Below the pieces are notes generated by a model that was not told where the DNA came from, made no database searches, and was given only the letters and a program-made list of their open reading frames with translations. Of a stretch of 56,247 nucleotides of DNA, positions 35,813-49,934 are shown in pieces. Within the stretch, counting starts at the first letter, position 1; each line of letters starts with the position of its first letter. Source of the DNA: Puniceicoccaceae bacterium (GTDB lineage: Bacteria; Verrucomicrobiota; Verrucomicrobiia; Opitutales; Opitutaceae); assembly GCA_007695295.1 (NCBI GenBank), contig REEB01000139.1, forward strand, positions 1-56,247, written 5' to 3'. A program made the position numbers and the translations under genes.

Positions 35813-35840
35813 GAAAAAAACCAGCCGATGGGAATCGGCT
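35813..35840 (-). terminator. Rho-independent terminator of rpsR
   Basis: On the minus strand AGCCGATT...AATCGGCT type pairing (35823-35840) is followed by a run of T residues (35813-35819). The stem begins inside the TAG stop codon of rpsR, so the gene and its terminator overlap. Confidence 0.75.
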
Positions 35841-36042
35841 ACATCATCAGCCGCAGATTGCGGGCCCGCTTGATCATGCGCGTGATGTAGCGCTGTTGCT
35901 TGGCGGTCAACCCGGTCATCCGCCGCGGCAGAATTTTTCCGGTATCGGTGACGTAGCGCGTGAGGATGTGGGGCTGCAGGTGCGTGAACTGCAGCGGAGT
36001 GAGACTCTGGGTCGTTTTGGGCGGGGACTCTTCGGAACTCAT
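35839..36042 (-). CDS. rpsR: 30S ribosomal protein bS18
   Basis: A 67-residue basic protein of the small ribosomal subunit platform. The signature '[37 protein letters not shown]' spans about residues 28-64, and the length is typical. It starts at the ATG at 36042; the preceding sequence reads ...TTTTTTCC with no Shine-Dalgarno motif. The usual S6 and L9 neighbours are absent; instead it sits between tsaC/sua5 and lexA, a solitary copy that may be a paralog of a copy in the S6 operon. Confidence 0.96.
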
Positions 36043-36300: not shown

Positions 36301-36316
36301 AGTGTTCATGAACACT
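36301..36316. promoter_or_regulatory. Probable LexA operator overlapping the lexA start codon
   Basis: AGTGTTCATGAACACT is a perfect 16-bp palindrome with the half-site TGTTC/GAACA. It immediately follows the -10 candidate and contains the start codon of lexA itself. Autoregulation is the rule for lexA genes, and a TGTTC/GAACA-type LexA motif has, as I recall, been described in Verrucomicrobia. The exact spacer of the published motif was not checked. Confidence 0.75.
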
Positions 36317-36925
36317 GAAAAGAAGGAATTGACGGGGCGGCAGGCGGAGGTGCTGGCGTATGTCCGGCGGCGGCGGCGGGAGACGGGGGCGGCGCCTTCG
36401 ACGCGGGAGATCCAGCGGGCCTTCGGATTTGCCAGCCAGACGGCGGTCATGCACCACCTCCGCGCCCTCGAGCGCAAAGGGGCGCTCTGGCGGTTGCCGG
36501 GAGATCTGCGTCCGGCCGTCCCGGCGGAAGGTCTGCGCGAGGTTCCGATCCTCGGCCAGATTCCGGCCGGGTTGCCGGCCTACGGCGAGGAGGAGCAGCG
36601 CGAGGGATGCGTAACGGTCGATCTGGCCTCGGTGGGCATCCCGCGCAATGCCCGGACCTTTGCTCTCCGGGTGCGGGGGGACTCGATGACCGGAGCCCAC
36701 GTCGCGGAGGGCGACGTGGTCGTGCTGGAGTTTCGCGAGCCGCGGTCCGGGGACATTGTGGCCGCGTTGATCGATGGGGAGACAACCCTGAAGCGTTTTT
36801 TGCTGCGGCAGGGCCGGCCCTACCTGAAGGCGGAAAACCCCCGCTATCCGGATCTTATCCCGGCGCGGGAGTTGGTCGTGCAGGGCGTGATGGTGGCCTT
36901 GGTGCGGACGGTGGCACGGCGATGA
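36308..36925 (+). CDS. lexA: SOS-response repressor LexA
   Basis: A 205-residue transcriptional repressor and self-cleaving protease. The N-terminal winged helix covers residues 1-70 ('LTGRQAEVLAYVRRRRRETGAAPSTREIQRAFGFASQTAVMHHLRALERKG'-type layout). The cleavage site is A87-G88 in 'GQIPAGLP'. The serine-lysine dyad is S126 ('RGDSMTG') and K162 ('TTLKRF'). All elements needed for RecA-stimulated autocleavage are present. It starts within a palindromic operator and is followed 70 bp downstream by the fused DinB-DnaE2-like gene, with no terminator between. It therefore probably controls that gene directly as well as itself. Confidence 0.95.
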   Translation: MNTEKKELTGRQAEVLAYVRRRRRETGAAPSTREIQRAFGFASQTAVMHHLRALERKGALWRLPGDLRPAVPAEGLREVPILGQIPAGLPAYGEEEQREGCVTVDLASVGIPRNARTFALRVRGDSMTGAHVAEGDVVVLEFREPRSGDIVAALIDGETTLKRFLLRQGRPYLKAENPRYPDLIPARELVVQGVMVALVRTVARR

Positions 36926-36995: not shown

Positions 36996-39900
36996 ATGAT
37001 CATCCACCTGGATGCGGACGCTTTTTTCGCCTCGGTGGAGCAGGCGGCGGACCCGAAGCTGCGGGGCCGGCCGGTGGCGGTGGGCGGCGGGCGGCGCGGG
37101 GTGATCGCGAGCGCCAGCTACGAGGCGCGCAAGCTGGGGGTGTTCACGCCGATGCCGACGGCCCGGGCGCGGCGGCTCTGCCCGCAGTTGGTGGTCCTGC
37201 CGGGGGACTTCGAGAAGTACGAGCGCTTCTCCCGCTTCATGTTTTCCTACGCTTACGACTTCACCCCGATGGTGGAGGTCTGCTCGATCGACGAAGGCTA
37301 CTTCGACCTGCGGATGGATGCCCGCCGGCCGGCCCGGGAAGTGGCCGAGGCGCTGCGGCGGGCCATCGGCCAGAGTCTGAAAATCCCCGTTTCGGAAGGC
37401 ATCGCGGGCAACAAACTGGTGGCGCAGGTGGCCTCGAAGCTGAAGAAGCCGGCCTGTTTTCTGGAAGTGCCGGCGGGCGGGGAGCGGGCTTTCCTGGCCC
37501 CGTTGCCGAACCGCTGGCTGCCCGGGGTGGGGCCGAAGTTGGGCGGGGTGCTGGATGCGGCCGGGCTGCGGACGATCGAGCGGATCGCGGGCGTTTCGCC
37601 GGAGCAATTGGCGCTTTTCGCGGGGGGGCTGGCGCCGGAGCTCTGCCGTTTTGCCCGGGGCGAGGATGAGCGCCCGGTCATCCCGGAGCCGCCGGAGGCG
37701 AAGTCTTTGGGCAAACAGGAGACTTTCGAGGAGGACGTGACCGATGAGGCCTTCATTCTCGCCCGGCTGCGGCGGATGGCGGACGGGCTCGCCGCGGAGC
37801 TGCGGGCGGAGGGGAAAAGTTTCCGCACCGTGTCATTGAAAATTCGCTACAACGACCGGGCGGAAGAGAGCCGCAGCCACAGTTTTTCCGAGCCGACCGA
37901 CCTGGAGGACGACCTTTACGCGATCTTTCCCCGGCTGCTGCGGGAGGCGTGGTCGCGGCGGGTGAGCCTGCGGTTGGCGGGGATTTCGCTCTCGCGGTTT
38001 TACGCCACTCCGGGGGCCGAGCTGGAGCTGAACGATGCGGGGGCGGCCAACCGGCCGGCGCGGCGGCGGCTGGCGGCGGTCATCGATGCGCTCCGGCGCG
38101 AGGGCCACGACCGCATCCTGCGCGGGCACGATCTCTGGCTGCGGTCCCGGGGCGGGCGGCCGCGGCGGGAGGTGCTGCCGCCGCCCCGCGGCGGGCCGGC
38201 GGTGGAGCCGGGCCTGCCGTCGTCGTCGGTCGCGGTCGCGGAGGCTCCGGCAGCCTACGGAACGGCTCCGGGGGGGCGGCCGTGCCCGGTGCGGCGGCTG
38301 CAGCCGTATGCGGCGCTGAATGTGCGCAGCCACTACAACTTTCTCGATTCGCTCCTTTCCCCGGCGGCGGCGGTGGAGCGGGCGGCGGCCTACGGTTTGC
38401 CGGCGGTGGCGCTGACCGATCCCAACCTGCACGGCCTGCCGGCTTTTCTGGCCGCGGCGCGGGCGGCCGGGGTGCGGCCGATCGTGGGCGCGGAGCTGCG
38501 GGTGGCGGCCCCGGCGGACAATCCCGCCGCGGGCGGCCGCCGGCTCGCCTACGTGGAGAGCCGCCGGGGCTACGGCAACCTCTGCCGGCTCCTTTCGCTG
38601 GAGCGGATCACGCCGGCGGACCTGGCCGATCACCGGGAGGGCCTGCTCCTGCTTCCGCCGGATGATCCGGCCGGGCCGGTTCTGCCGGAAGTGCGTTACC
38701 TCGATCCCAAAGACCGGCGCGGCTACGACATCGTCCAGAGCATCCGCACCCTCACGCTGCTGGCCCAGCCGCATCCGGAGAAGCGGCTGGGAGGCGGGTT
38801 TGCCTTTCTCTCGCCGGCGGAGGTGGAGCGGCGGTGGGGTGGGGCGCCGGACCGCATCCGCGCCACGCTCGCCGTCGCGGAGCGCTGCACCTGGGTGCCG
38901 GAGTTCGAGGGCCTGCAGTTCCCGGCCTGGCAGCCGCCGGACGGGTCGACCCCGCGGGAATTTCTCCGCCGGCTCGTGCTGGAGGGCTTGGCGCGGCACT
39001 ACCCGGATGCGGGGGAGGCCGTCCGCGGCCAGGTCGAAGCGGAGCTGCGGACCATCGCGGAGGTTGGCTACGAGGAGTATTTTCTCGTCGTCTGGGACAT
39101 CCTGCAGGAGTGCCGGAGGCGGGGGATCGAGTGGATCACGCGGGGCAGCGCGGGCGATTCGCTGGTCTGCCGCTGTCTGGAGTTCAGCGATTTCTGCCCG
39201 CTCCGCTTCGAGTTGTACTTTCGCCGGTTTCTCAACCGCGACCGGATGGCGCGCCACAAACTGCCCGACATCGACCTCGACTTCGCCCACGACCGCAAGG
39301 ACGAGGTGGTGGACCTCATCTTCGAAAAATACGGCCGCGAGCATGCGGCGGTGGTGGGCGGATTCAGCACCTTTCGCGGGCGCTCGGCGGTGGCGGAGAT
39401 TGCCAAGGTTCTGGGCGTGGCGGAGTTCGAGATCCGGCGTTTCACCGAGCGGCTCCCCTACGCCACCGGGGCGGCCGGCCTGCGGCGCGCCATCAGCGAA
39501 AGCCCCGACTGCCGGGACCTGCCGGTCGAGGATGAGCCCTACGCCACCGCGCTCGCGCTCGCGGACCTCCTCGACGGCTTTCCCCGCCACCGCAAAATGC
39601 ACCCTTGCGGGGTGGTGCTCTCGCGGGTGCCGATCCGCCAGATCACCCCCGTCTTCACCTGTGCCAAGGGCTATCCGGCGACCCACTTTGACATGGATGC
39701 GGTCGAGGACGCCGGCCTCGTCAAGCTCGACATCCTCGCCCAAGGCGGACTGGCGGTGATGCGCGACACCGTCGAGATGGTGCGGGAGCGCCACGGGATC
39801 ACGCCCGACCTCAAGGCCCTGAAGCCGTGGAACGATCCGGAGGTCTGGCGGCTGATCGCCTCCGGCGGAGCGCGTGGCGTGCACCACATTGAAAGCCCGG

Positions 39901-41249
39901 CCATGACCTCGCTCGTCCGTATGTGCCAGGCGGATACGATCGACACCCTGATCGCGATCGTCTCGGTGATCCGGCCCGGGGCGGCCAACACCATGCGCAA
40001 GGTGACCTTCTCCCGCCGCTGCCAGGGCCTGGAGGCCCCGGAGTATCCGCACCCCAGCCTCGAGCCGGTCCTGCGTACGACCCACGGGGTGATGGCCTAC
40101 GAGGAGCATGTCCTCCAGATCTGCGAGGCCTTCGCCGGGATCGAGCCCGGCCGCTCCGATGTGCTCCGCCGCGCGCTGGTGAAACTGCGCGACGACATCG
40201 TGGCGGATTTCAAGAAAACCTTTTACACCGCCGCCGCCGGCCGGGGGCGGACGCGGGAGGAGACCGACCGGGTCTGGGCGCTGCTGGAGGGCTTCCGCGG
40301 CTACGCCTTCTGCCGGGCCCACAGCACCGCCTACGGCATCGAGGCCTTCGAGGCAGCGTATCTGAAGCATTACTACACTCCGGAATTTCTCGCCGGGGTG
40401 CTGACCCACGGGAAAGGTTTCTACTCCCGGCTGGTCTACACCCTGGAGGCCCGGCGGCTGGGGATCGGGCTGGTCCATCCCTGCGTGAATCGCCCGCGGG
40501 ACGGATTTTATCCGGAGGAGGCCGCCGGTGGGGGAGGAGTGGTCCTGCGGGTGCCGCTGGAGCGGATCGGAGGGCTTTCGGAAGGGCTGCTGGCGCGGTG
40601 GCGGGCGGAGCGGGCGAAAGGGAGCTTCGCCTCGCCGCGGGATTTTTATTTTCGCTGCGCCCCCGGCGCGGAGGAGATGCGGCTGCTGGTGCGGGCGGGG
40701 GCGCTGGACGGCTTTGGGCAGCCCCGCACGGCGCTCTGCTGGGAGCTGCACCGACTCGCCCACTGGCCGCGGGGGTCTCGGCAGGGGCTGCTCTTCACCG
40801 GCGGAGGCGAGGTGGTGGCGCCGCCGCCGGGCGAACTGGAGGAGCCCTCCCTGGCGGAGCGGCTGCGGGATGAGATGGAGCTGTTTGGCTTCACCATTTC
40901 GGCGCATCCGTTGGCGCTTTATCCGGAAGTGGACTGGACAGGCTACCCGCGGGTGGCGGAGCTGGGCGGCTTGGCCGGGCGGCGGGTAACGGTCTGTGGC
41001 CTGGTCGTGGAGACGCGGATACACCACCAAGCGGACGGCGAGCCGATGAAATTCATCACCCTCTGCGACCACTCCGGGATGCTGGAGATGGAACTCTTTG
41101 CGACGGTTTACCGGCGCTTCGGGGTGCTGACGGTGCGCCACCCGGTGCTGGAGGCGACCGGGGTGGTGGATGCGTTTGAGAACGGGCGCGGCTACACCCT
41201 GCGGGTGGAGCGGGTGGCGCCGCCGCGGCGGCGACCGGCCGCCTCTTGA
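36996..41249 (+). CDS. Fused Y-family (DinB/Pol IV) and C-family (DnaE2-like) DNA polymerase
   Basis: One uninterrupted 1417-codon gene. Residues 1-382 are a full Pol IV: 'HLDADAFFASVEQ' with D6 and steric-gate F11, 'CSIDEGYFDL' with catalytic D99-E100, the helix-hairpin-helix 'LPGVGPK' (175-181), and a little finger from about 235 to 345. Residues 383-437 are a Pro/Gly/Ala-rich linker. Residues 438-1417 are DnaE2-like: a PHP domain from 438 (its HxH replaced by N442-V-R444), 'TRGSAGDSLV' (715-724), the catalytic aspartates D760 and D762 in 'PDIDLDF' and D912 in 'VKLDIL', and a C-terminal OB fold ('RRVTVCGLVVETR'). Unlike ImuB, the Y-family part keeps its active-site acids. The start is the canonical Pol IV N-terminus, with GGAG upstream. 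It likely performs SOS-induced translesion synthesis. No imuA is present. Confidence 0.92.
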   Translation: MIIHLDADAFFASVEQAADPKLRGRPVAVGGGRRGVIASASYEARKLGVFTPMPTARARRLCPQLVVLPGDFEKYERFSRFMFSYAYDFTPMVEVCSIDEGYFDLRMDARRPAREVAEALRRAIGQSLKIPVSEGIAGNKLVAQVASKLKKPACFLEVPAGGERAFLAPLPNRWLPGVGPKLGGVLDAAGLRTIERIAGVSPEQLALFAGGLAPELCRFARGEDERPVIPEPPEAKSLGKQETFEEDVTDEAFILARLRRMADGLAAELRAEGKSFRTVSLKIRYNDRAEESRSHSFSEPTDLEDDLYAIFPRLLREAWSRRVSLRLAGISLSRFYATPGAELELNDAGAANRPARRRLAAVIDALRREGHDRILRGHDLWLRSRGGRPRREVLPPPRGGPAVEPGLPSSSVAVAEAPAAYGTAPGGRPCPVRRLQPYAALNVRSHYNFLDSLLSPAAAVERAAAYGLPAVALTDPNLHGLPAFLAAARAAGVRPIVGAELRVAAPADNPAAGGRRLAYVESRRGYGNLCRLLSLERITPADLADHREGLLLLPPDDPAGPVLPEVRYLDPKDRRGYDIVQSIRTLTLLAQPHPEKRLGGGFAFLSPAEVERRWGGAPDRIRATLAVAERCTWVPEFEGLQFPAWQPPDGSTPREFLRRLVLEGLARHYPDAGEAVRGQVEAELRTIAEVGYEEYFLVVWDILQECRRRGIEWITRGSAGDSLVCRCLEFSDFCPLRFELYFRRFLNRDRMARHKLPDIDLDFAHDRKDEVVDLIFEKYGREHAAVVGGFSTFRGRSAVAEIAKVLGVAEFEIRRFTERLPYATGAAGLRRAISESPDCRDLPVEDEPYATALALADLLDGFPRHRKMHPCGVVLSRVPIRQITPVFTCAKGYPATHFDMDAVEDAGLVKLDILAQGGLAVMRDTVEMVRERHGITPDLKALKPWNDPEVWRLIASGGARGVHHIESPAMTSLVRMCQADTIDTLIAIVSVIRPGAANTMRKVTFSRRCQGLEAPEYPHPSLEPVLRTTHGVMAYEEHVLQICEAFAGIEPGRSDVLRRALVKLRDDIVADFKKTFYTAAAGRGRTREETDRVWALLEGFRGYAFCRAHSTAYGIEAFEAAYLKHYYTPEFLAGVLTHGKGFYSRLVYTLEARRLGIGLVHPCVNRPRDGFYPEEAAGGGGVVLRVPLERIGGLSEGLLARWRAERAKGSFASPRDFYFRCAPGAEEMRLLVRAGALDGFGQPRTALCWELHRLAHWPRGSRQGLLFTGGGEVVAPPPGELEEPSLAERLRDEMELFGFTISAHPLALYPEVDWTGYPRVAELGGLAGRRVTVCGLVVETRIHHQADGEPMKFITLCDHSGMLEMELFATVYRRFGVLTVRHPVLEATGVVDAFENGRGYTLRVERVAPPRRRPAAS

Positions 41250-41262
41250 GCAAACCAGGCCA

Positions 41263-41287
41263 TCACCCCGCTTCGCGGTCGGGGTGA
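41263..41287. terminator. Stem-loop at the end of convergent polymerase and permease genes
   Basis: TCACCCCG (41263-41270) pairs with CGGGGTGA (41280-41287) across a 9-nt loop, 14 bp after the polymerase stop codon. It includes the stop codon of the permease gene on the other strand. No U-tract is present, so its strength as a terminator is doubtful. Confidence 0.35.
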
Positions 41288-43923
41288 AGGCGCGCCCCCC
41301 AGCGACCGACGGCCGAGCAGACAAGAGCGCCGCAGGCGAGGATGAGGCCGGCGAGCAGGAGCCACTCCGTCCAAGGCAGTTGAAGTTGAAGCGTCCAGCC
41401 GAAGGATTGGCGGTTGATGACGTGGATCAGGAGCAGGCCGAGCACGCCGCCGAGGAGGAGGCCCCCGCAGACACCCGCGGCCGCGAGGGCGAGTCCTTCG
41501 CCGGCGGCGCCATGGGCGATCTCGCGGGGAGAAAAGCCGAGCACGCGGAGGACGCCGAGTTCGTGGCGGCGTTCCAGCAGCAGGGTGGCGAGGCCAAGGC
41601 CGAGTCCGGCGATGGCCACGACCAGCCCGATGGCGAGCAGTGCATAAGTGACGGCGAAGGTGCGACGAAAAATCTGCAGCGCTTCCTCGCGAAGATCGCG
41701 GTTGGAGAAGAGGCGGAGGCCCGGGTGGTCGGCGGCGAGGCCGGCAATGAATGCATCCACCCCGACGTCCTCTTCCAAATGGATGGCGAGGGTGCGGGCG
41801 CCGGTGGGCCCGAACCATGCCTGCAGGCGGTTCTGGTCGATGAGGAGGGAGCCAGCCTCATCGCCATAATCGGCGTAGATGCCGGCGATGGTGGTCTCGA
41901 CGGAGTCTCCGCCGGGCAAGGGCAGGCGGAGCCGGTCCCCCGGTTGGAGGCGGAGGCGGAGGGCGAGGCTTTCACTGGCGGCGGCGAGAGCCGGAGCCTC
42001 CTCATCGGAGGTGAAAAACGCCGCCGGGGGCGGTCGCAACCAGACCACGCTCCCGTAGTGGATAACCAATGACAGATCACGTCCGCCGAGGGTGACTTCG
42101 CGCCCATTGATGAGCACGGAGCGCACCCGGTGGGGCGCAATCGCATGCACCCCGGGGCGTGCCGCAATGGCTTCGAGCGTCTCCGGTGCGATCTGCGCCC
42201 CGGAGCCGGCCCCGCGGGCGGCGGCCGGGGAGGCGAAAACATCGCCTTGCAGCACTTGGCCGATCCAGCCCCGCACCGTACTCTCGAAGGAGCCGATGAG
42301 AAACAGCATTGAGGCGGTCATGCCCACGGCCATGACCACGCCAGCGACCGCCTGACGGTGGCGGGCCCCCGCCTGTCGTAGTTGACCCGCCATGACACGG
42401 CGGACCGCCCCGGCGCGGAAGCCGCCGGCGATCCGGCCCAGCAGCGGGAGCAGAAACGGCGTCAGCAGGCTTCCGGCGAGGATCCAGGCGAAAGCGGCCG
42501 CGTACCCGGCGAGCGGGAAGCGGTTGCCGGCGGCATCCTGAAGGGGCGGCAGGATGAAGCCGAGCACACCGACGGCGAGGGCGGCCGTGGCCGCGGCCAG
42601 CCGCGTGGGCCGCGGGAGCCCGGCTCCGGAAGACGCGCGCCCGAGATGCTGGGCGGGAGGCGTGCGGGCGGCCTCGCGGGCGGGTATCCAACCCGCGACC
42701 AACCCGGCGCCGAGGCCAAGGAGAAGGGCGAGCACGGCCTCGAAGCCAGCCGGATCCGCGGAGCGGACCGTGGTTTGGAAATAGAGCGTGTTGATGGAAT
42801 CGGCGACCAGCCGGACCGTGAACTGCGCCCCGGCCCAGCCAAGGAGGCAGCCCAGCGCTCCGCCGGCGAGTCCGAAGAGCGCACCTTCGGAGAGCCAGAG
42901 GCATTGTATCCGTTTGTCGGACACACCGAGGGAACGGAGAATGGCGCTCTCCTCCCGGCGCCGCTCCACCGCACTGCCCAGCCCCTGCAAGACGAGGGAC
43001 AAGCCGACCAGCAAGGCGACGAGGGCGAGAACCCCGAGATTGAGTCGGTAGGAGCGGGTGAGCATCCGGCCGGTGTCTTGCCGGAAGGCCGCCTCTTCGA
43101 GCACCCAGCGTCTCTCTCCTGCGGCTCTCAGCCGGTCGGCGGCAGCGGCGGCGATGCGGGCGGCGGCATCGCTGGCATCGATGATCAGCTCGACTCCGTC
43201 CACGGTGTCACCTCTGCCCAGGAGGTGCTGGAGGTCGGGCAGGTCCATGACGGCGAGGCGGCGATCGGCGAGTCCGGCCCCCGGCGTCTCCGGGATGCGG
43301 CCGAGAATGCGGACCTCGTGGGGACGGTCGCCGATGAGCAGGGAGAGGGTGCCATCGCCTTGGACGAGGTGGCCGGCTTCCGGCGAGAGAAAGACGCCCG
43401 GACTGGAACGGAAAGCTGCCCAGAAGTCGCCGCCCGGGTCCCGCTCCAAGTTGGTGAAAAAGGTTTCCCGAGCTCCGCGCTCCGCGAGAAGAGATCCGGC
43501 TGCGACAACATCGATCCCGAGAAGCCGCAGCGAAGGACCCGTCGCGGTCGGATCGTCCCGGTCCGAAATGATGGTGGCGGAGGTTTCGATGAGGGGGAAA
43601 AGCACCACCGGCAGTTCACCGAGGGCGTCTCTCATCTCCCGCAGCTCGGCCACGGAGAAGGCTCCGCTGGCGGGGCGGAGGGAGAGGTCACTGCCGCCGG
43701 TGACGGCTTCGGCAAAGACGGTGAAACTCTGGAGGGCGGCCCGGTTGGCCAGGCGGATGGAGACGACGGTGGCGACGCCGAGCGCGATCGTCAGCAGGAC
43801 CAGCAGGGATTGGCTGGGAAACCGCCGGGCGTGGCGCAGGGTGAAGTGGCGAAACCAATACCATCCGCCCAAGCCGCCGCCGGTAGTTGCCCCGCCCCGG
43901 GGAGCAGGGGATTCAAGCGGCAT
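41263..43923 (-). CDS. ABC transporter permease with two FtsX-like modules
   Basis: An 886-residue inner-membrane protein. The first helix is near 35-60 ('SLLVLLTIALGVATVVSIRLA'). A periplasmic domain follows to about 270, then an FtsX helical block at about 290-430 ('LALVALLVGLSLVLQGLGSAVERRREESAILRSLGVSDKRI'). A second unit has a helix near 530, a further periplasmic domain ('GVHAIAPHRVRSVLINGREVTLGG') and a C-terminal FtsX block with 'LLERRHELGVLRVLGFSPREIAHGA'. This matches the duplicated MacB/LolC-like permeases working with a LolD-type ATPase. The start at 43923 overlaps the ATPase gene by 11 bp, so the two are translationally coupled. The substrate is unknown; lipoprotein or lipid transport is one possibility. 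Confidence 0.87.
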   Translation of the reverse strand: MPLESPAPRGGATTGGGLGGWYWFRHFTLRHARRFPSQSLLVLLTIALGVATVVSIRLANRAALQSFTVFAEAVTGGSDLSLRPASGAFSVAELREMRDALGELPVVLFPLIETSATIISDRDDPTATGPSLRLLGIDVVAAGSLLAERGARETFFTNLERDPGGDFWAAFRSSPGVFLSPEAGHLVQGDGTLSLLIGDRPHEVRILGRIPETPGAGLADRRLAVMDLPDLQHLLGRGDTVDGVELIIDASDAAARIAAAAADRLRAAGERRWVLEEAAFRQDTGRMLTRSYRLNLGVLALVALLVGLSLVLQGLGSAVERRREESAILRSLGVSDKRIQCLWLSEGALFGLAGGALGCLLGWAGAQFTVRLVADSINTLYFQTTVRSADPAGFEAVLALLLGLGAGLVAGWIPAREAARTPPAQHLGRASSGAGLPRPTRLAAATAALAVGVLGFILPPLQDAAGNRFPLAGYAAAFAWILAGSLLTPFLLPLLGRIAGGFRAGAVRRVMAGQLRQAGARHRQAVAGVVMAVGMTASMLFLIGSFESTVRGWIGQVLQGDVFASPAAARGAGSGAQIAPETLEAIAARPGVHAIAPHRVRSVLINGREVTLGGRDLSLVIHYGSVVWLRPPPAAFFTSDEEAPALAAASESLALRLRLQPGDRLRLPLPGGDSVETTIAGIYADYGDEAGSLLIDQNRLQAWFGPTGARTLAIHLEEDVGVDAFIAGLAADHPGLRLFSNRDLREEALQIFRRTFAVTYALLAIGLVVAIAGLGLGLATLLLERRHELGVLRVLGFSPREIAHGAAGEGLALAAAGVCGGLLLGGVLGLLLIHVINRQSFGWTLQLQLPWTEWLLLAGLILACGALVCSAVGRWGARLHPDREAG

Positions 43924-48830: not shown

Positions 48831-49934
48831 ATGAGCAAACGGATACCCCCATTCCCGCCGCCCGAGCGGATGGAACTCCTCGCCCGGGCCCTGGTAGAAT
48901 GGTTCCGTGCCAACCGCCGCCGCCTGCCTTGGCGGGAGCGGCCTTCCGTCTATGGGACGGTCGTTTCCGAGTTCATGCTTCAACAGACCCAAGTGGCAAC
49001 CGTGGTGCCCTATTTCGACCGCTGGATGCGGGAGTTGCCCGGCTTTGCCGCTCTCGCGGCCGCCCCGGAGGATCGGGTGCTGAAGCTCTGGGAGGGGCTG
49101 GGCTATTACAGCCGGGCCCGCAATCTGCACCGGCTGGCCGAGGAGGTGGCGGAGCGCGCCCGGCTCCCGCAGACGGCGGCGGAGTGGCGGGAGCTGCCCG
49201 GGGTCGGCCCCTACACGGCGGCGGCCATCGCCAGCATCGCTTTTGGCCAACCCGTGGCGGTGGTGGACGGAAATGTGGTCCGGGTGTTGGCGCGGCTGAC
49301 CGGGGACGAAACCCGGTTTAGCTCGGGCGCGGCCGCCGTGGCTCACTTCCAGGAGCTGGCCGGCGCTCTGCTCGATCCTGAACGTGCCGGCGACCACAAC
49401 CAGGCCATGATGGAACTGGGTGCGACGGTTTGCCTGAAGCGCAGGCCGCAGTGCCTCCTCTGCCCCTGGCGTGCGGACTGCCGGGCGCTTAAGCAGGGCC
49501 GGCCGGAGGAACTGCCCCAGCTGGAGCGCCGGCCGAAGGTGGATGTGGCGGTCGTGCGCTACTGGGTGGAGCGGAAGGGCGAACTCCTCGTGCACCGGAT
49601 TCCGCCCGAAGGCCGGCGGATGGCGGGCCTGCACGAGCTGCCGACCGGCCCGCAGTTGGGGTGGGCGGAGGAGACGGCCGAGCCGGAGCCGGATCGTATC
49701 AGGTTTGTGGGGACGCGCGGGATCACTCATCACCGTATCCGGGAAACCATTCTCATCCCCCGGAGGGATGCGCGCCTGCCGCGGAACGCGGAAATGGGGC
49801 GGCTCCACCTCTTCTGGATCCCCCGGGAGAACCTCGGCGGGCTGGCCTTTTCCGGGCCGCACCGGCGCTGGGTGGACCACCTGCTGGCGGAGCGTGGCGG
49901 TCGTCGGAAACCTAGCCGGCCGGTGGTGATTTAG
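48831..49934 (+). CDS. mutY: A/G-specific adenine DNA glycosylase
   Basis: A 367-residue base-excision enzyme that removes adenine opposite 8-oxoguanine. Catalytic E47 is in 'VVSEFMLQQTQ', the helix-hairpin-helix is 'LPGVGPYTAAAI' (122-133), and D146 is in 'VVDGNVVRVLARL'. The 4Fe-4S cysteines are C201, C208, C211 and C217 in the C-x6-C-x2-C-x5-C spacing. A C-terminal NUDIX-like recognition domain covers about 235-350 ('GTRGITHHRIRETIL'). The 3' end overlaps the convergent dxs stop by 4 bp. Confidence 0.96.
   Translation: MSKRIPPFPPPERMELLARALVEWFRANRRRLPWRERPSVYGTVVSEFMLQQTQVATVVPYFDRWMRELPGFAALAAAPEDRVLKLWEGLGYYSRARNLHRLAEEVAERARLPQTAAEWRELPGVGPYTAAAIASIAFGQPVAVVDGNVVRVLARLTGDETRFSSGAAAVAHFQELAGALLDPERAGDHNQAMMELGATVCLKRRPQCLLCPWRADCRALKQGRPEELPQLERRPKVDVAVVRYWVERKGELLVHRIPPEGRRMAGLHELPTGPQLGWAEETAEPEPDRIRFVGTRGITHHRIRETILIPRRDARLPRNAEMGRLHLFWIPRENLGGLAFSGPHRRWVDHLLAERGGRRKPSRPVVI

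Follow-up and report, generated by a model that had tools for sequence, protein, structure and literature searches.

A Y-family polymerase with an intact active site (PolY) has been found in one operon with DnaE2 in Bacteroidetes, as two genes (PMC6511836, Fig. 8; PMC12926913). In a survey of more than 3000 species, which distinguished 11 types of multi-subunit complexes, a DnaE2B-PolY-RecA complex was proposed on the basis of gene neighbourhood and AlphaFold models (PMC12926913). Since such bacterial mutasomes are multi-subunit and transient, the exchange between inserter and extender at a lesion and the role of RecA have remained open. Here we describe a gene that joins two different error-prone DNA polymerases, one of the Y family and one of the C family, in one chain. 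It lies on the forward strand of contig REEB01000139.1 from a Puniceicoccaceae bacterium (assembly GCA_007695295.1), a stretch of 56,247 nucleotides hereafter called the window. Judged from sequence, this fusion is fairly probably a LexA-linked and LexA-controlled single-chain translesion mutasome, and it is best read as a covalent, RecA-docked version of the DnaE2B-PolY-RecA complex.

As in the original prediction, made from the letters of the window alone, the gene runs as a single open frame through 1417 codons, from an ATG at 36996 to a stop at 41249 (+), without internal stop. The Pfam matches of the DinB half (IMS 5–148, IMS_C 236–338) are followed in the same chain by those of the C-family half: PHP 441–539, DNA_pol3_alpha 656–915, finger 919–1081, HHH_6 1156–1246 and OB 1331–1407. 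Pfam, NCBIfam, the tree and the fold (Foldseek matches to DinB/Pol IV structures) agree on a DinB-type core for the Y half. The AlphaFold model of the C half has a predicted local distance difference test score (pLDDT) of 89.2 and a predicted template modelling score of 0.88; its top Foldseek matches are Pol III alpha subunits, for instance 7pu7 and 3e0d. Alignment, model and Foldseek thus place the three catalytic aspartates of the palm and a DnaE fold in this half. The features are as follows; nucleotide positions are counted from the first letter of the window and residues along the 1417-aa protein.

36301–36316 (no strand): perfect 16-bp palindrome AGTGTTCATGAACACT with TGTTC-N2-GAACA, a candidate operator over the lexA start codon (sequence)
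36308–36925 (+): lexA, directly upstream of the fusion, with helix-turn-helix (HTH) and S24 autoprotease, Ala-Gly cleavage site and Ser/Lys dyad (Pfam, sequence)
36996–41249 (+): fusion gene, Y-family (DinB-type) polymerase, RecA-N-terminus-like (RecA-NT) motif, linker and C-family (DnaE2-like) polymerase, 1417 aa (60 single-frame homologues)
36996–38009 (+): Y-family catalytic core and little finger, residues 1–338, with conserved D6, F11, D99 and E100 (Pfam IMS and IMS_C, conservation, model pLDDT mostly above 90, Foldseek)
38019–38033 (+): degenerate sliding-clamp motif site, residues 342–346, ELELN (comparison with 12 DinBs of the family and 60 fusions)
38046–38147 (+): RecA-N-terminus-like motif, residues 351–384, containing RRRLAAVIDALRREGHDRILRGHDLWLRS (alignment, profile searches, AlphaFold helix 348–368)
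38148–38306 (+): variable Pro/Gly/Ala-rich linker, residues 385–437 (about 53 residues), predicted disordered over 399–437 (AlphaFold, alignment)
38307–38645 (+): PHP domain, shortened and with its metal-site motifs degraded, the first reading LNVRSHYNF (Pfam, PHP-to-palm distances)
38688–40295 (+): C-family palm, thumb and fingers with catalytic D760, D762 and D912 (Pfam, conservation, AlphaFold, Foldseek)
40461–41216 (+): HhH region 1156–1246 and OB domain 1331–1407 (Pfam)
40782–40796 (+): QGLLF, residues 1263–1267, possible but weak clamp motif within a disordered loop (sequence, AlphaFold)

A genome scan gave 78 loci whose labels were nearly all Verrucomicrobiota (Prosthecobacter, Brevifollis, Limisphaerales/Pedosphaera, Spartobacteria, Chthoniobacterales and others). 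Sixty full-length homologues across this phylum, about 50–60% identical and including members of the source genome's family, are all single frames. Relatives that were always two separate genes would have spoken against the fusion; dozens of independent genomes hold the joined frame instead. The catalytic positions named at the outset were placed correctly and are near-invariant in the 60 homologues: D6 and E100 are kept in every sequence, D99 in 59 (one E), the steric gate F11 is F in 57 and Y in 3, and D758, D760, D762 and D912 of the C half are present in all 60. Conservation of the acidic residues over such wide divergence bears out the expectation that both sites appear active. From this conservation and by analogy with the described mutasomes, we infer that both halves would catalyse and that they would split insertion and extension between them.

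The little finger is followed in the 60 homologues by the consensus RLAxVVDxLRxxxGxxxILRGHDL, then by a linker of variable length and the start of the PHP domain. Searched as a profile, this RecA-NT-like segment, conserved throughout the 60 fusions, matches the C-terminal end of the free DinBs of the source genome's family with E-values between 8e-10 and 6e-5; its matches to UmuC, Bacteroidetes PolY and RecA, in their known RecA-NT regions, are weak. In profile-profile comparison with RecA, the best match was to RecA residues 3–37 (p 0.013). By these sequence comparisons, segment 351–384 is the RecA-NT motif of PMC6511836. The corresponding motif of ImuB is experimentally essential for the interaction with ImuA (PMC11791113). 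The 55-residue linker of the original prediction (383–437) is about right in extent; residues 348–384 just ahead form a conserved, structured motif (confident AlphaFold helix over 348–368), and the predicted disorder of the linker spans 399–437. Directly ahead of the RecA-NT motif, all 12 inspected free DinBs of the family carry a clamp motif QL[ED][MLI]F (e.g. QLEMF). In the fusions this site reads ELPLE, ELALD or similar: the leading Q is kept in 1/60, the final F in 1/60 and the intact motif in none. A Q-x-x-L-x candidate occurs in the C half of about half of the fusions, in the window protein at a place disordered in the AlphaFold model; on this count, the idea that all C halves share a conserved clamp motif was rejected.

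The C half was expected to be of DnaE2 type. It is indeed a C-family polymerase with its catalytic aspartates kept, but not a canonical DnaE2, since exclusive grouping of the fusions with canonical DnaE2 was rejected (approximately unbiased (AU) test, p-AU 0.0005). The C halves of the fusions form a clade (support 100), joined by one unfused Verrucomicrobiota protein (L124). A branch with support 99 sets canonical DnaE2 and DnaE1 on one side and the fusions, on their own branch, with Bacteroidetes/Desulfosarcina sequences on the other; as the tree is unrooted, the C half may still belong to DnaE2 in a broad sense. Among the sequences found, its closest unfused relative is a 1144-aa C-family polymerase with an N-terminal extension (L132 2839–6273, genome G103); no Y-family gene lies on the stretch read there. 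The median distance from PHP start to palm is 213 residues in the fusions, 294 in DnaE1, 277 in canonical DnaE2 and 245 in the Bacteroidetes/Desulfosarcina group. The PHP domain being shortened and its metal motifs degraded, proofreading by it is unlikely. In these respects the C half fits what PMC12926913 describes for DnaE2B. The source genome (98.6% complete) holds one further C-family polymerase, which is DnaE1-like.

We observed a LexA/S24 (LexA- or UmuD-like) gene near 54 of the 60 fusions, each with the AG site and the Ser/Lys dyad; two of the six loci without one (L005, L007) have next to no sequence ahead of the fusion. No S24 gene other than the lexA of the window was found in the source genome. 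Exact TGTTC-N4-GAACA (SOS) boxes are enriched ahead of the fusions: 22 in 51 kb upstream, against a single one in the other 515 kb of these loci. This linkage and these boxes suggest that DNA damage induces the fusion gene. A promoter scan gave no match. In 14 loci of a Verrucomicrobiaceae/Prosthecobacter-like group (L044, L045, L048, L058, L064, L102 and 8 more), the S24 partner lacks the HTH and is thus a UmuD-like protein, whose gene occupies roughly the stretch from 490 to 10 bp ahead of the fusion. Most of these partners have a TGTTC-N4-GAACA box in front of them. A stepwise origin of such a UmuD-like subunit from LexA is possible. On its other side, the lexA of the window adjoins a ribosomal protein S18-like gene (35838–36042, −), named by eye from its translation.

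In the tree, the Y half is sister to the free DinBs of the source genome's family (support 98, among sampled sequences). The fusion is the only Y-family locus of the source genome. None of the 4 carriers in the family has another Y-family gene, against at least one in 93 of 96 non-carriers (Fisher p 9e-6, uncorrected for relatedness). The fusion therefore probably stands in for the free DinB in this family and covers ordinary DinB work too. In a different family, genome G269 has two more Y-family genes besides the fusion.

A model of its action would run as follows. DNA damage would lead to RecA filaments and self-cleavage of LexA, and the lexA-fusion operon would be expressed. Lying between the two polymerase halves, the RecA-NT motif would tie the protein to RecA in the manner of the UmuC-RecA and ImuB-ImuA contacts. 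Insertion opposite the lesion is most likely the task of the DinB half, which, its own clamp motif being lost, would work only at sites to which RecA or the C-family half recruits it. The tethered C-family half, its PHP nuclease presumably not working, would then extend from the distorted end, the order of this hand-off being conjectural. In its full form the proposal combines, in one chain, polymerases of two unrelated families that both catalyse and pass the primer end from one active site to the other, with an anchor on RecA rather than through a clamp motif of the Y half, and in Verrucomicrobiaceae with a UmuD-like partner apparently derived from LexA. We put this full form forward tentatively, as a possibility somewhat short of probable.

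A more modest role for either half has to be weighed against this model. The Y-family member of ImuA-ImuB-DnaE2 is a non-catalytic organiser (PMC11791113), and the joining of a Y-family member to a C-family polymerase in itself suggests recruitment; the Y half could then serve mainly to recruit (RecA, lesion DNA) and leave bypass synthesis to the C half. ImuB, however, has lost its catalytic acids, which the fusions keep (D6, D99, E100) together with the steric gate over deep divergence, and clamp docking, the typical role of ImuB, is exactly the function that the fusions have lost, so we consider such a scaffold unlikely. Conversely, all lesion bypass might fall to the Y half, with the C half mainly an anchor or a filler of short gaps. 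As the sole Y-family polymerase of its carriers in the source genome's family, the fusion must cover DinB functions, and its clamp-like Q-x-x-L-x motif in the C half is kept by only some members; the strict conservation of the catalytic aspartates and of the palm and finger region of that half makes this distinctly unlikely.

The two halves might also work as separate enzymes after a cut in the linker, or with the C half produced in addition from an internal start. The linker is disordered and variable in length and sequence, and the gene is naturally split in L081 and L082; most homologues nevertheless keep one frame despite deep divergence, with the RecA-NT motif and both active sites, and no in-frame ATG was seen at the Y/C junction. 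We regard this as highly improbable. The split Y and C sequences of L081 and L082 branch among the fusions in the trees, and hence the separation there probably arose by later splitting of a fusion. As for an assembly or annotation artefact joining two adjacent genes, the assembly of the window does consist of 278 contigs, but dozens of independent genomes, one of them the isolate Brevifollis gellanilyticus NBRC 108608, match in architecture, domain order and junction region. Because the joined architecture recurs there as one frame, an assembly accident was rejected and the chance of any such artefact is negligible. A LexA-controlled single-chain mutasome thus remains the reading that we prefer. 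Several observations weigh against it. The window operator has a spacing of N2 and the box of its relatives N4; TGTTC-N2-4-GAACA occurs at only 6 sites in the source genome, with no clear enrichment, and a genome-wide SOS regulon for the window operator was rejected for this reason. The likeness of the motif to RecA itself is weak when taken alone (p 0.013). The fusion is rare, with 7 of 388 genomes of the phylum matched at a strict cut-off, some of them without the full fusion, and the halves can occur apart, as in the natural split of L081 with a crcB-like gene in between.

Carriers are patchily distributed: 4 of 100 genomes in the source genome's family, and 24 of 68 in that of G269, where a genome can hold as many as three copies. 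Two or three copies were seen in G485, G480, G510 and G469; the copies L034 and L079 likewise share one bin. In L042, L065, L103 and L107 a stop or frameshift seems to interrupt the fusion, and these copies are either pseudogenes or sequencing errors. Public bins labelled Klebsiella pneumoniae or Akkermansia (muciniphila), among them that of L059 and of several other loci, hold fusions of Verrucomicrobiota type, and these labels look wrong. The frame between the halves of L081 (4212–4710, a subdivision 6 genome) is antisense and fluoride-channel-like (crcB-type), as named by eye from its sequence. No relative was present in viral contigs and no phage record covers at least 80% of the protein; a phage or mobile origin was rejected accordingly. 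In the window, a 1163-aa open frame runs antisense to the fusion (37833–41324, −), most likely as a by-product of high GC content, and a gene for an HhH-GPD base-excision repair glycosylase lies at 48831–49934 (+).

In a single-chain mutasome the stoichiometry of the parts is fixed; such a protein could be purified, and its two sites can be inactivated one at a time. A genetic fusion of parts of these kinds is independent evidence that the components of the proposed DnaE2B-PolY-RecA complex act together. The exchange of a clamp motif for a covalent tether and the series from LexA to a UmuD-like partner offer testable evolutionary steps. Not foreseen in the original prediction were the lexA or umuD-like partner, the SOS boxes, the RecA-NT motif and the loss of the clamp motif. 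No published fusion of this kind was found in the open-licence literature, which leaves the absence of a report unproven, and a text search of PMC12926913 returned no such fusion.

Compared with ImuA-ImuB-DnaE2, the fusion shares a Y-family member combined with an error-prone C-family polymerase, the RecA-NT motif and the linkage to LexA. It differs, as anticipated, in the intact catalytic site of its Y half, against the catalytically dead ImuB, and in a C half outside the canonical DnaE2 clade. ImuA and ImuB were not found in the source genome, where PF00154 matches only RecA and PF00817 only the fusion (no dedicated ImuA profile was run). Similarly, no domain such as the ImuB-C beta-barrel is predicted between the halves, the region after the RecA-NT motif being variable and predicted disordered (no ImuB-C profile was run). 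With Pol V (UmuD'2-UmuC-RecA) the fusion has in common a RecA-NT docking motif and, in 14 relatives, an upstream UmuD-like partner (S24 without HTH); its Y half is DinB-like and not UmuC, and a second polymerase is attached. The stand-alone Pol IV (DinB) proteins of the source genome's family are the closest relatives of the Y half and carry the same RecA-NT tail, but they keep QLEMF and end soon past this tail, whereas the fusion runs on into a second polymerase. The DnaE2B-PolY-RecA system of Bacteroidetes likewise has a Y-family polymerase with an intact active site and a RecA-NT motif adjoining an error-prone C-family polymerase, lacks ImuA and ImuB, and has a PHP start-to-palm distance shorter than that of DnaE1 or canonical DnaE2. 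There, however, PolY and DnaE2 are two separate genes, also in annotated plasmid records, in contrast to the one covalent chain of 1417 aa and its 60 homologues; the Y half of the fusion stems from the Verrucomicrobiota DinB lineage, and its partner is a LexA/UmuD-like gene.

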